Assembly: GCA_015711825.1 (NCBI GenBank)
Contig: JACVJD010000014.1
Coordinates: 1-43,049, forward strand
Origin: Candidatus Solincola daggyaiensis
GTDB lineage: Bacteria > Actinomycetota > Geothermincolia > Geothermincolales > RBG-13-55-18
Length of the DNA stretch: 43,049 bases
Reading direction: 5' to 3'
The notes beneath the pieces were generated by a model. The model had not been told where the DNA came from, ran no database searches, and saw only the letters and a program-made list of their open reading frames with translations. This document shows positions 20,806 through 26,377 of this stretch, in pieces. The position numbers and the translations under genes are program-made. Every line of letters begins with the position of its first letter. The first letter of the stretch is position 1.

Positions 20806-21120
20806 TCATACCCCGATGGGCACCACGCGGCGGCGTTGCACCATCTTGCCGATGGCGTAGGCGGCGACGCCCAGGAAGGGGAGGGCCGAGCAGATGGCGC
20901 CCCCGATGATCATGCCCCGTCGCGAAGCGTGCGCACTCGCCTCGCTGCCCAAGGTCAGAAGCTCGCGCGCGCCCAGGCTCTCGCACATCTCCTCCAGCCG
21001 GCGGGCGAACTCCGGCCCCGGGTCGACGGGGCGCAGGTGCTCTTTGACCATCCTCACCGTGTCCCGGTAACGGAGCCGCCCTCCCGACCCGCGCCCGTGC
21101 TTCCCGCCTTCACCGCTCAT
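20806..21120 (-). CDS. Small membrane protein coupled to sigma factor, possible anti-sigma or regulator
   Basis: A 104-residue protein with a charged N-terminal half (RLRYRDTVRMVKEHLRPVDPGPEFARRLEEMCESLG), one clear membrane segment (about 70-92, IIGGAICSALPFLGVAAYAIG) and a basic tail. Its ATG overlaps the sigma factor stop codon as ATGA, so the two are co-translated. That arrangement is usual for a sigma factor and its membrane regulator. No zinc-binding HxxxCxxC anti-sigma motif is present, so it is not a classical zinc anti-sigma factor. Function as a regulator is an inference from position and topology. Confidence 0.78.
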   Translation of the reverse strand: MSGEGGKHGRGSGGRLRYRDTVRMVKEHLRPVDPGPEFARRLEEMCESLGARELLTLGSEASAHASRRGMIIGGAICSALPFLGVAAYAIGKMVQRRRVVPIGV

Positions 21121-21746
21121 GGCCCGACCTCCTTCCCGGAAAGGCTGCGGTGCAGACTTAAAAGGGAGCGGTGGACGAGCACCTTCACCGCGCCGGTGCT
21201 CTTCCCCATGATCTCCCCTATCTCCTTGTGCCTAAGGCCCTCGGCGTAGCGCAGGATCAGCGCTTGCTGCCGCTCCTCCGGCAGTTCCAGAAGCGCGGCC
21301 TTCAAGGCCTCGACCTCCATCTCGCGCTCCAGTCTATCCTGGGGGGAAGGCGAGGGGTCGTGAAGCGGCTCCGCGCCCTCCAGGTCCACCATGCGCCGGC
21401 GCTTGGCGTTGCGGTGCCAGTTCGCGACCAGGTTGTGGGCGATGCGAAGCAGCCAGGCCGAGAAGGGGATGCCGCGGTCCTGGTAACGCTCGAGGTGCAG
21501 GAGAGCGTGCAGAAACACGCTCTCGGTGATGTCCTCGGCGTCGTCCACGTTTCCCACGCGGTAATAAACGTAGGTATAGACCCTTCTGAGGTACTTCTTG
21601 TAAAGGGCCTCGAAGGCCTCCCTCTCCTCCTTGGCCCTGCGCACCAGCTCCGAATCCTCGTGGCGGATCCTTCCATCCGCTTCCCTTTTCGTCAACTCAC
21701 ACCTCGTGTCTGCGAATCCTGCCGCGGTCACCGCTCTTTCCCTCAC
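21117..21746 (-). CDS. ECF-type sigma-70 family RNA polymerase sigma factor
   Basis: A 209-residue group 4 (ECF) sigma factor. Region 2 is at about 40-105 (FEALYKKYLRRVYTYVYYRVGNVDDAEDITESVFLHALLHL, then FSAWLLRIAHNLVANWHR). Region 4 is at about 140-200 (LPEERQQALILRYAEGLRHKEIGEIMGKSTGAVKVLVHRSLLSLHRSL), with the helix-turn-helix. GTG 21746 starts only five bases after a TATAAT box, which would make it leaderless. A TTG at 21692, preceded by GAGGTG, is a conventional alternative that removes 18 residues of low conservation. The partner gene overlaps the stop. The genes it controls are not evident here. Confidence 0.93.
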   Translation of the reverse strand: MRERAVTAAGFADTRCELTKREADGRIRHEDSELVRRAKEEREAFEALYKKYLRRVYTYVYYRVGNVDDAEDITESVFLHALLHLERYQDRGIPFSAWLLRIAHNLVANWHRNAKRRRMVDLEGAEPLHDPSPSPQDRLEREMEVEALKAALLELPEERQQALILRYAEGLRHKEIGEIMGKSTGAVKVLVHRSLLSLHRSLSGKEVGP

Positions 21747-22393: not shown

Positions 22394-22425
22394 GCAGGGC
22401 GTCATGAAGAGGGGAGGCGGTGCGA

Positions 22426-23163
22426 ATGACAGGTGAGGCGGTAAGCAGGCCGGACGGCGCGCTACCCAACCACATCGCCATCATCATGGACGGCAACGGC
22501 CGCTGGGCGGAGCGTCGCAACCTCCCGCGCATAGCCGGGCATAAGGCGGGCGAGGAATCCATCACCGATATAGTGCGGGCCGCATCGGAGTGGGAACTCG
22601 GCGCCCTTACCCTCTTCGCCTTCTCCACTGAGAACTGGAACCGCCCCCCCAGCGAGGTGCAGTTTCTCATGAGCTTCAACCGCAATCTCCTCAACAAGCG
22701 CGTGGAGGAGTTCCACGCCCGCAATATCCGCATACGCCACGCAGGTCGGCGTGACCGCATACCAGCCTCCACCCTCAAAGCCATCGACAACGCCGTGGAG
22801 ATGACGCGCGGCAACACCGGCTTGGCCCTGAACATCGCCTTCAACTACGGCGGTCGGGCGGAGATCGTGGACGCCGTGCGCGGACTCTGCGAGGAAGCGG
22901 CCCGCGGCGACCTCGAGCCGGGAGAACTGGACGAGGAGAGGTTCCGCTCCTACCTCTACAACCCCGAGGTGCCGGATCCCGACCTCCTCATCCGCACCGC
23001 CGGGGAGATGCGCATCAGCAACTTTCTCATCTGGGAACTGGCCTACACGGAGATCTACGTCACCGAGGTGCTGTGGCCGGACTTCCGGCGCCGACACCTC
23101 GCCGAGGCCATAAGGGAATACCAGTCCAGGGAACGCCGCTTCGGGAGCATCAAGGAGGGATAG
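22426..23163 (+). CDS. uppS: Isoprenyl transferase (undecaprenyl diphosphate synthase family)
   Basis: This cis-prenyltransferase condenses isopentenyl diphosphate units to make the C55 lipid carrier used in cell-wall synthesis. The 245-residue product has HIAIIMDGNGRWA (16-28, catalytic Asp22), the FAFSTENW motif, and near the end RTAGEMRISNFLIWELAYTEIYV, which holds the diphosphate-binding Arg and Ser. Length is typical. I chose ATG 22426 because GGAGG lies eight bases upstream; GTG 22420 is too close. recO follows after 7 bp, and the two are probably co-transcribed. Confidence 0.96.
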   Translation: MTGEAVSRPDGALPNHIAIIMDGNGRWAERRNLPRIAGHKAGEESITDIVRAASEWELGALTLFAFSTENWNRPPSEVQFLMSFNRNLLNKRVEEFHARNIRIRHAGRRDRIPASTLKAIDNAVEMTRGNTGLALNIAFNYGGRAEIVDAVRGLCEEAARGDLEPGELDEERFRSYLYNPEVPDPDLLIRTAGEMRISNFLIWELAYTEIYVTEVLWPDFRRRHLAEAIREYQSRERRFGSIKEG

Positions 23164-23170
23164 GGCGCCG

Positions 23171-23941
23171 TTGGCCACCTTCAAGGATGAGGCCATCGTC
23201 CTCAGGGCCTTCGACCTCGGCGAGGCTGACCGCATTCTTTCCCTCATCACCTCGGGCCACGGCCTGCGCCGCGCCGTGGCCAAGGGCGTCAAGCGCACCA
23301 AGAGCAAGTTCGGAGGGCGCCTTGAGCCCTTCACGCACATACGCGCCATGCTGCACGAGGGCAGGAACCTGGACACGGTGCTGCAGGCGGAGACGGTGCG
23401 TCCTCATGCCGCGCTGCGCGGCGACTACGCCAAGTTCCTGCATGGAGAGGCGATGCTGGAGCTTATCGAGAAGTCGCTGCAGGAACACCAGGAGGTGCCA
23501 CGGCTTTTCGATATCCTGCGCGTCACCCTGGACGTGCTCGAAGGCGAGGTGCGCGATGCCTCCCTGCTGCTGGCCGCCTTCGCCCTCAAAGTATGCGCCC
23601 TTATAGGGTACCGCCCACACCTCGACTGCTGCCTGCACTGCGGGCATGAAGGCGGTGGCGGCAAGGTGTTTCTGGACCTCTTAGGGGGAGGTATGGTCTG
23701 CTCACGCTGTCGCCCCTCCTGCGGAGAGAGCCTTCCCCTCAGCCCGGAGGGTCTGGCTCTTATGCGCGGGCTGCTGCGCGAGGACATGGCCACCGTGGCG
23801 GGCGTGGAGCGCGGCCCGCGCGAGGCCGGGGAGGCCCTCTCCGCCTCCCTCCGCCTCGCCGAGGGTTTTCTGGAGCGCCCCCTGAGATCCCGGCAGGTGA
23901 TCATGCGCCAACTGCAGGGGAACGCGGAGCGACAGCGCTGA
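23171..23941 (+). CDS. recO: DNA repair protein RecO
   Basis: RecO binds single-stranded DNA and SSB and helps RecR load RecA in gap repair. The 256-residue product has the N-terminal OB-fold start MATFKDEAIVLRAFDLGEADRILSL with the basic segment AKGVKRTKSKFGGRLEPF. A helical C-terminal domain follows, with a four-Cys zinc site, CCLHCGH (about 153-158) and CSRCRPSCG (about 177-185). It starts at TTG 23171, seven bases after the uppS stop, with AGGG in between as a weak ribosome binding site. The conserved N-terminus supports this start. Confidence 0.94.
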   Translation: MATFKDEAIVLRAFDLGEADRILSLITSGHGLRRAVAKGVKRTKSKFGGRLEPFTHIRAMLHEGRNLDTVLQAETVRPHAALRGDYAKFLHGEAMLELIEKSLQEHQEVPRLFDILRVTLDVLEGEVRDASLLLAAFALKVCALIGYRPHLDCCLHCGHEGGGGKVFLDLLGGGMVCSRCRPSCGESLPLSPEGLALMRGLLREDMATVAGVERGPREAGEALSASLRLAEGFLERPLRSRQVIMRQLQGNAERQR

Positions 23942-23991
23942 TCCGCCATGGGGGGCGCGGAGCGCCGCTCGGACCCGGGAGAAAAAAGCTA

Positions 23992-24020
23992 TTGACGGAC
24001 TAATACCACAGTGGTATATT
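23992..24020 (+). promoter_or_regulatory. Strong promoter with palindromic operator, upstream of an RNA gene
   Basis: TTGACG (23992-23997) and TATATT (24015-24020) are exactly 17 bp apart. The spacer and the -10 box hold a perfect inverted repeat, ATACCACAGTGGTAT (24003-24017, seven-base arms around one A), placed to block RNA polymerase if bound by a repressor. The expected start point, about 24027, coincides with the first bases of the terminal stem of the downstream structured RNA. A second TATATT follows at 24021-24026. Confidence 0.7.
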
Positions 24021-24026
24021 TATATT

Positions 24027-24148
24027 GACCCCAAGGAGCTGGAGGTGAGGCCAGCGGGGGCGACCGGCGAGGGGAACCGGAAGGCGTAAGCCGGAAGGGG
24101 AAGCTCGAAGGGAGTTCTCGAGGAAGCGCCGAAGGTTACTTGGGGTCA
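24027..24148 (+). ncRNA. Putative stand-alone structured RNA, family unknown
   Basis: The ends pair perfectly over ten bases: TGACCCCAAG (24026-24035) with CTTGGGGTCA (24139-24148). Inside are GCTGG/CCAGC (24038-24042 with 24051-24055, SD-like loop AGGTGAGG), a GGC-GTAA-GCC hairpin with a GNRA loop (24083-24092), and CTCGA/TCGAG (24104-24108 with 24118-24122). The RNA is purine-rich, with six GGA motifs, and has no open frame of note. A well-spaced promoter starts it at the base of the stem. The next gene, deoC, is on the opposite strand, so this is not a leader of an adjacent gene. It does not match SRP RNA, 6S RNA, tmRNA, RNase P or a riboswitch that I can recognise. Confidence 0.55.
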
Positions 24149-24278
24149 CCCCTTTCCCGTAAAGCATACCTCCAACCACCGGCCCCCTCAGGGCGCGCAG
24201 AGCTTTCCCGTAGCGCTATTCCTCGACGCCGTAGAGCTTTGCCGAAGGCCGGAGGCCCTCCTTGCCCCCGCCGGCCCG

Positions 24279-25031
24279 TCAGCTCCTGTTCCATGCGAGA
24301 AGGCGGAGATACTCGCAAAGGATCTCCGAGGCGGAGCCGGTCCCTATGCGGTTGGCTCCCGCCTGCACCATCTCCAGCACCTGGGACAGCCGCCGTATCC
24401 CCCCGCTCGCCTTCACGCCGAACCCCGGCCCCACCGTCTCGCGCAGGAAGGCGACCTCCTCCGCCTTCGCCCCCGTCGGCCCGAAACCGCTGGAGGTATT
24501 GATGGAATCGGCGCCGGCCTCCATGGCGATGAGGGCGCCCGCGCGCATGTCCTCGCGGCTCAGGTAACAGGTTTCCAGTATCACCTTGACCACGATATGC
24601 CCCTCGCCCTTGGCGGCGTCGTAGCGGCGCGCCAGCCGAACCACCTCGGAGATATCTTCCCTCACCCTTTGGTAGCGACGGGAGCGCAGGGCGGAGATGT
24701 TCACTACCATGTCCAGCTCCTTCGCTCCTTGCTGCAAGGCGAACACCGCCTCCGCCTTTTTGGCGTCCGTGGAGGCAAACCCGAAGGGATAGCCTATGGC
24801 GGCACCAGGGCTGACCGCGCTTCCCTCCAGCTCCACCCTGGCCATGGGCAGGTAATAGAGGGGCACGAAGGCGCATCTGAAACCGGCGTCGGCCGCTTCG
24901 CGCAGGAACTCCAGGTATTCGCGTTCCTCCGCCTCCGGCTTGAGCATGACGGCGTCGATGAAGTAGGTAAGCCCTCCCACCTCCGGGAAGACGCGCAGGA
25001 CCTCCTCTCTCGCCGTGGGGGCGTCGTTCAT
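24279..25031 (-). CDS. deoC: Deoxyribose-phosphate aldolase
   Basis: DeoC cleaves 2-deoxyribose 5-phosphate to acetaldehyde and glyceraldehyde 3-phosphate in nucleoside breakdown. The 250-residue TIM-barrel protein has DMVVNI (Asp107), VKVILET with the Schiff-base Lys149, SINTSSGF, and GVKASGGIR with the second active-site Lys207. Length is slightly above that of bacterial short forms because of an N-terminal extension. Its ATG overlaps the mgtE stop as ATGA, so it is translated with mgtE. It is the last gene of an era-mgtE-deoC unit; 337 bp holding the RNA gene follow. Confidence 0.93.
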   Translation of the reverse strand: MNDAPTAREEVLRVFPEVGGLTYFIDAVMLKPEAEEREYLEFLREAADAGFRCAFVPLYYLPMARVELEGSAVSPGAAIGYPFGFASTDAKKAEAVFALQQGAKELDMVVNISALRSRRYQRVREDISEVVRLARRYDAAKGEGHIVVKVILETCYLSREDMRAGALIAMEAGADSINTSSGFGPTGAKAEEVAFLRETVGPGFGVKASGGIRRLSQVLEMVQAGANRIGTGSASEILCEYLRLLAWNRS

Positions 25032-26377
25032 ATCAGCACAATCCCGATGAGGACATATACCGCGAGGCCGAGTATATCCATCAAGGTGGCCAGAAAAGGC
25101 TCCGAGGCTTTCGAGGGGTCCCTGCCCAGGGCCTTGAGCAGGAGGGGAAGGGCGCTCCCCACCAGAGTGGCGAAGACGATGGTACAGGCCATGGCCGTGC
25201 CCACCACTATCCCTATACGGGCGCTCTCGCCCACGGAACGGGCAAAAACGGAGATTATCGCCCCGCTCGCAACCGCTATCCCCACCCCGATGAGCGACTC
25301 GTGGAGAACGCTTCCCGCAAACCTCCTCCCTCCCTCACCCTCGCCGAGAACCTCCAACGCCATGCGCGTGGCGCTCTGCAACGATACCGTGCCCCCCATG
25401 GAAAGGATGGCGGGAATGAAGAAGACCAGGGCTATATGCGCCCGCATAGTCTCCGAATACGCCCTCAGGATACCCCCCGCCACCAGCAACTCCAACGCCA
25501 GGGCGATAAGCACCCAGGGGAGCCGGCCCACGATGGCGGCCAGGAAGGGGTTGCGTTCCCTGCCCTCCTCCGTTTCCCAGGTGCCCGCCAGGCTGTAAAG
25601 GTCTTCCCTGGCCTCCTCCTCTATGACGTCCATGACGTCGTCCACGGTCACGATGCCCAGCAACCTTCCCTCGCCATCGACCACGGGGACGGCCAGCAAG
25701 TCGTAGCGGTCGATGAGGGTGGCTACTCTCTCCTGGTCCTCCTCCGGCCTCACGGTGATGAGATTGCGCTGCATGATCTCCGCCACCGGCACTTCGGGGT
25801 CGGCGACGATGAGCTCGCGCAGGGAAGTGACCCCGCTCAGCCTTCCTTCCATATCATGGTAATATACATAGTAGATCATCTCGATGTTCTCGGGGGCCTC
25901 CCTCAGCTTCTCCAGCACCTCCCCTACCGTCAGCCCGTCGCTGAGGCGCATGGCGTCCGGGGTCATGAGCCCCCCCGCCGTCTCTTCCCCGTGCGCCATA
26001 AGGCGCCGCAGCTGACCCGCCCGGTCCGGGCTCATTCCCGCCAGCAACGCCTCTGCGGTCTTGGGGGGGAGATCCGCCAGGAGGTCGACGGCGTCGTCGG
26101 GAGGCATCTCCGATATGATGCGGGTTGCCAGGCCCCTGGCGAGACCCTGCATCACCTCCACCTGCCCCTCCTCGGACATCTCCAGCAAGGCCTCCGAGGA
26201 CTCCTCCACGTCCCAGGCCTTGAAGATACGCAGGCGGTCTTGATAGGGAATGCCCTCCAGGACCTCGGCGGCGTCGGCGGGCTGCAGGCCCTCAAGCAGC
26301 GCCAAGGCCGCGGCCATCTTCCCCTGGGAGAGGAGGTCGCTCAGGCTCTCCCCCAACACCTTGTTCCTGTCCTCCAT
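25028..26377 (-). CDS. mgtE: Magnesium transporter MgtE
   Basis: MgtE is a dimeric Mg2+ channel gated by cytosolic Mg2+. The 449-residue product has the helical N-domain (about 15-130, with EMPPDDAVDLLADLPP), two CBS domains (about 135-260, with TVDDVMDVIEEEAREDL), a connecting helix, and five membrane segments (about 285-449), including FFIPAILSMGGTVSLQSATRMAL, the conserved pore region. Length is normal. It sits 34 bp after era. No M-box-like leader is visible, so it is probably expressed with era. Confidence 0.95.
   Translation of the reverse strand: MEDRNKVLGESLSDLLSQGKMAAALALLEGLQPADAAEVLEGIPYQDRLRIFKAWDVEESSEALLEMSEEGQVEVMQGLARGLATRIISEMPPDDAVDLLADLPPKTAEALLAGMSPDRAGQLRRLMAHGEETAGGLMTPDAMRLSDGLTVGEVLEKLREAPENIEMIYYVYYHDMEGRLSGVTSLRELIVADPEVPVAEIMQRNLITVRPEEDQERVATLIDRYDLLAVPVVDGEGRLLGIVTVDDVMDVIEEEAREDLYSLAGTWETEEGRERNPFLAAIVGRLPWVLIALALELLVAGGILRAYSETMRAHIALVFFIPAILSMGGTVSLQSATRMALEVLGEGEGGRRFAGSVLHESLIGVGIAVASGAIISVFARSVGESARIGIVVGTAMACTIVFATLVGSALPLLLKALGRDPSKASEPFLATLMDILGLAVYVLIGIVLI

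Follow-up and report, generated by a model that had tools for sequence, protein, structure and literature searches.

Between recO and deoC of Candidatus Solincola daggyaiensis lies a short segment that a preliminary description, made from the sequence alone, read as a discrete RNA gene and not as a leader. The locus raises the question of whether such a gene exists, to which RNA family it would belong and what its product might do. We studied the locus within the 43,049-nucleotide stretch of DNA that contains it (the window) and in related genomes. Comparative analysis strongly supports a discrete structured RNA gene that has its own promoter, is not a leader and matches no Rfam family. The earlier reading is upheld by homologues, compensatory changes, the placement of the promoter and a reciprocal match between covariance models.

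Fold and covariation of the RNA

The features of the locus are collected in Table 1. The window RNA has a predicted folding energy of −61.8 kcal/mol (z = −6.0), and none of 200 shuffled sequences folded as well; across nine family members, z ranged from −3.4 to −7.2. The ten-base perfect terminal stem noted earlier is indeed present (24026–24035 with 24139–24148), and it resumes past a 2×2 loop, where 24038–24040 pairs with 24134–24136. The preliminary description also listed internal hairpins, one with a GNRA loop: the GNRA loop stands, as the single apical GUAA, and the several hairpins are replaced by one unbroken rod, in which short helices alternate with purine-rich loops up to the GUAA tip. 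The clearest of these loops sets GGAA opposite GGAA. In the family alignments, the conserved letters lie mostly in the helix and the purine loops, G–U pairs are kept at fixed places in the terminal helix, and the aligned members contain no long conserved single-stranded seed.

Table 1. Features of the RNA locus and its neighbours, in positions of the window
Feature	Positions	Strand	Basis or remark
recO, upstream neighbour	23171..23941	+	
−35 box TTGACG	23992..23997	+	promoter scan
Perfect inverted repeat ATACCAC-A-GTGGTAT, candidate operator	24003..24017	+	overlaps spacer and −10
−10 box TATATT, extended −10 TG	24015..24020	+	promoter scan; 17-nt spacer to −35
Structured RNA, ~123 nt	24026..24148	+	predicted 5′ end at first one or two bases of terminal stem
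Conserved terminal helix, 5′ strand TGACCCCAAGGAGCT	24026..24040	+	homologue comparison, covariation
Symmetric GGAA/GGAA internal loop, first GGAA side	24079..24082	+	fold; conserved in relatives
Apical GNRA tetraloop GUAA	24086..24089	+	fold; GCAA or GAAA in most relatives
Symmetric GGAA/GGAA internal loop, second GGAA side	24093..24096	+	fold; conserved in relatives
Conserved terminal helix, 3′ strand GGTTACTTGGGGTCA	24134..24148	+	homologue comparison, covariation
deoC, convergent downstream neighbour	24279..25031	−	

Homologues with compensatory changes, proposed earlier as a check on the RNA gene, were found in two alignments. In the first (A1, 17 sequences of the order), 9 of the 24 pairs had changed on both sides with pairing kept and 97.8% of cells pair; none of 500 shuffles, a control that leaves shared ancestry in, reached any of five measures, and sliding the partner by one column lowered pairing to below 60%. 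The 12 closest copies gave a result in agreement with this. In the second (A6, 19 long-form sequences), 24 of 37 pairs had changed on both sides, and the 98 such cells compare with a mean of 33 in shuffles that likewise retain shared ancestry (0 of 500). The alignments show that the predicted rod-shaped structure is conserved and that its terminal helix is nearly invariant.

Two other candidates at the locus were rejected. The motifs AAGGAG/GGAGG, considered as a Shine–Dalgarno mimic, are not retained in the other families of the order Geothermincolales, and an antisense open reading frame of 59 amino acids (24000–24179, minus strand) has no Pfam match, its homologues shifting in length by 1–2 bases in places.

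Distribution among basal Actinomycetota

The preliminary description took the RNA for an orphan, which is contradicted by the spread of its family through basal Actinomycetota. With BLASTN, relatives were recovered at the level of the genus, the family and the order; a close relative that bears a name is Candidatus Solincola tengchongensis (class Geothermincolia, order Geothermincolales). A covariance model (R1) was searched in 18 Candidatus Geothermincolales genomes and in 13 from four sister families within the class. Exactly one R1 copy was found in 17 of the 18 order genomes. The remaining genome, the 18th, is 62% complete, and there the RNA is split by a contig end: recO stops 10 bases before the end, and the 3′ half of the RNA opens another contig. 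The 13 sister-family genomes gave no R1 copy and, with filters off, no diverged copy either. Two R1 matches were judged false, one within a long open reading frame (L060) and one at a contig end (L059 29–153, family f18), where a tandem GGATGGCGAAAGCC repeat imitates the GGAA rod.

The copies in Geothermincolales always follow uppS–recO, and a convergent deoC faces the RNA in every locus with a long enough contig, except L019. In the sister families, recO–uppS and deoC/mgtE are co-directional, with little space separating recO from its neighbour and no RNA. Relative to those families, uppS–recO is inverted with respect to deoC–mgtE in Geothermincolales (window 22420–26377; L105–L116), so that the RNA of this order occupies the resulting junction.

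Weak R1 matches in other classes shared a common 5′ end, GACCCCAAGG.GCTGGA, and a common 3′ end, AAGGTT.CTTGGGG. A DNA pattern of both ends occurred in 12 of 396 Actinomycetota genomes, and the reversed-pattern controls gave zero. Scanned across all phyla as a fixed DNA pattern, not as a covariance model, with each of 84,980 species represented by a single genome, it returned just 8 loci. Seven bear the title Actinomycetota/Actinobacteria or the name of a candidate from that phylum; the eighth, titled "unidentified bacterium", has an RNA identical to a copy from family f24, which we equate with Aquicultoria because L075 (Ca. Aquicultor secundus) matches the copy in G107. Of 395 Actinomycetota genomes, 45 proved to be carriers by a second covariance model (R2): 16 belong to Geothermincolales and 29 do not, the latter including all 11 sampled Aquicultoria, with the remainder falling into about ten other families that are placed here mostly by family label and not by class. 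Many of the R2 RNAs are ~175 nt long and others 46–150; weak matches were accepted on the conserved helix, and long forms also on whole-length alignment. Conversely, a model built from the long forms of other lineages only (R3) had the window RNA, placed exactly at 24026–24148, as its sole match in the 43-kb window, at an E-value of 3e-4, which like all E-values of our home-made models is rough, and it recovered the remaining Geothermincolales copies with their ends where expected. The window RNA thus has the terminal helix, the promoter placement and the reciprocal covariance-model detection by which we define the family.

The short and long classes appear to belong together, the link between them resting mainly on the terminal helix. 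Architecture varies, and in some lineages the helix closes a short 3′ hairpin of a possibly longer RNA. In family f27 (L057 1360–1546), the conserved helix forms a short hairpin (1501–1546) that immediately follows a distinct structured domain of ~140 nt, an arrangement that suggests a modular helix. Copy number is mostly one per genome. G251 has three RNA-model matches, a tandem pair with 130 bases between its members (L128 912–1063 and 1194–1337, minus strand) and one elsewhere (C3:686571–686693), and G335 has two.

Neighbouring genes, named outside the window from their protein sequences, are conserved within a clade and differ between clades: recO/deoC, UbiD-like and RNase HI genes, a DAHP-synthase-like gene, and others. 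Such changes between lineages indicate a stand-alone gene and not a part of an adjacent one. A cis element of recO or deoC (leader, terminator or 3′ UTR) would explain why recO always adjoins the RNA in Geothermincolales, but deoC faces the RNA convergently, a promoter of its own precedes the RNA, neighbours differ in other lineages, the sister families carry recO and deoC without the RNA, and the genome has no second copy; we regard this explanation as very improbable.

It is well supported by these comparisons that the family, previously uncatalogued and absent from Rfam 15, is widely conserved in the deepest branches of Actinomycetota, being present in all 18 sampled Geothermincolales, all 11 Aquicultoria and about ten further families. 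In a study of actinobacterial flagella, Ca. Aquicultoria, Ca. Geothermincolia and Ca. Humimicrobiia are listed as basal classes (PMC10746217). For metatranscriptome searches and pull-downs, a ready handle is offered by our alignments and covariance models.

Promoter, palindrome and 3′ end

The promoter scan found exactly one site, of sigma-70 type (shuffles 0.0 ± 0.2), and this is the TTGACG/TATATT promoter with a 17-bp spacer that had been read from the sequence before. Of the 36 family members examined, 34 have TTGAC 29–40 nt 5′ of the helix, against a background of 0.007 per 12-nt slot. Family-wide, the promoter is shown to be placed so that transcription would begin at the base of the helix; transcription of the RNA is itself predicted. 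The scan found no strong terminator at the window copy, and TTT occurs within 14 nt 3′ of the stem in 35 of 36 family members examined.

The palindrome ATACCACAGTGGTAT, previously described as repressor-like, is perfect. The window contains four odd palindromes whose arms measure 7 bp, against 6.6 in shuffles, so the palindrome alone is not significant. Over 16 aligned promoters, 57 of 96 positions about the dyad centre are complementary, the best centre tested, most others giving ~30 or less (about 25%), and in one relative (L012) both arms are altered together, with C and G replacing the A and T of the window. The palindrome is absent from several members (L021, L023 and L026) and from Aquicultoria promoters, and two f3 members have a dyad with different spacing. 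Within 3 mismatches, the genome has no second copy, and the idea of a palindrome regulon was dropped. The dyad is partly kept in close relatives and unique in the genome; a repressor may act there, and the palindrome is a possible operator for a dedicated regulator.

Known RNA classes and the probable function

No Rfam 15 family matched the window RNA or its relatives at the gathering threshold, and relaxed thresholds gave chance matches only (H19_3, the best at the window, E 1.2; mir-9033, E 9.7; IMES-5, E 3.1). The match to a known class that the preliminary description had wished to see checked was therefore not found, and a literature search of open-licence papers returned no description of the RNA family.

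Some catalogued RNAs nevertheless resemble it. Bacterial small SRP RNA (RF00169) is likewise a rod of about 100–120 nt with GGAAG segments, but the locus has no RF00169 match and a separate SRP RNA is found elsewhere in 17 of 17 order carriers, by which this identity was rejected. 6S RNA (RF00013) shares the stand-alone rod closed by a terminal stem and the own promoter; here, too, the identity was discarded, as the locus has no RF00013 match, the window RNA lacks a large central bubble and 15 of 17 carriers have a separate 6S RNA above the Rfam cut-off. In the sister families f4–f7, neither the window-type RNA nor 6S RNA was detected, while SRP RNA was. A stand-alone RNA of about 120–180 nt, with a long rod and a predicted 5′ end at the closing stem, could still regulate RNA polymerase by binding it in the manner of 6S or Ms1 RNA. 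The separate 6S RNA of most carriers and the rod without a large open central bubble argue against this. Ms1, also a stand-alone structured small RNA of Actinobacteria, binds core RNA polymerase, and its homologues are recognised by flanking HAD hydrolase and oxidoreductase genes (PMC9130861), which are not seen at this locus, with its recO/deoC and other neighbours; the text of that paper does not mention several early-branching classes that we looked for. We consider a polymerase-binding regulator quite improbable.

Bacterial Y RNAs combine a conserved terminal helix with a variable interior, and a U-rich 3′ end adds to the likeness. A Y RNA-like partner of the Ro60/Rsr (TROVE) protein is nevertheless refuted for nearly all carriers, since just 1 of 45 carrier genomes encodes TROVE, and its probability is close to nil.

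The preliminary description had speculated on an RNA that sequesters CsrA, counting six GGA motifs, some in loops. The actual count is eight, with GGAAGG repeats but only two ANGGA, and no hairpin loop contains one of the motifs, which sit in helices and internal loops. Repeated GGA motifs are a likeness to CsrB/RsmZ, their position outside hairpin loops a difference. CsrA is encoded in 7 of 17 order carriers, the window genome included, and went undetected in 10, among them G006 and G010, which are both 99% complete and have RNAs rich in GGAAGG. Because CsrA is missing from these 10 carriers, the titration of CsrA by a CsrB/RsmZ-like RNA fails as a family-wide function and can be given very little credence.

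Small RNAs encoded by stand-alone genes of such a length often regulate by base pairing, and pyrimidine-rich targets could pair with the purine-rich loops. Against an antisense regulator of mRNAs, almost all of the RNA is base-paired or confined to small purine loops, a conserved seed is nowhere exposed, and most of the conserved sequence falls within the terminal helix; we think this role unlikely.

The explanation that we prefer, and hold to be probable, is a stand-alone RNA gene of a new family whose product acts in trans and is bound by protein via the terminal helix and the purine loops. The RNA would be transcribed by RNA polymerase carrying the main sigma factor, and it would end in the U-rich stretch immediately past the helix and fold to a stable rod. 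One or more proteins would most likely bind through the conserved wobble-containing terminal helix, CCCAAGNNG..G / AGGUUNCUUGGG, and the stacked purine loops (of the tandem G–A type), and the bound protein would be titrated or scaffolded by the RNA; we infer protein binding, as the most likely function, solely from conserved sequence in paired and non-canonical elements. The palindrome may let a DNA-binding protein adjust promoter activity in organisms closely related to that of the window. Several of the organisms that carry the family have 6S and SRP RNA as well, and the family may therefore mark an undescribed RNA–protein system near the root of Actinomycetota. More tentatively, and with the balance against it, one may picture an ancient housekeeping noncoding RNA of basal Actinomycetota, in which a conserved core protein docks on the invariant wobble-containing terminal helix of a fast-evolving purine-loop rod, giving a new global regulatory RNA–protein particle beside 6S and SRP RNA.

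As a separate observation, an ECF sigma factor gene lies near the window RNA (21117–21746, minus strand), BldN-like by its best model at a score below the model cut-off, and L019, L122 and L143 likewise have ECF sigma factor homologues close to the RNA.
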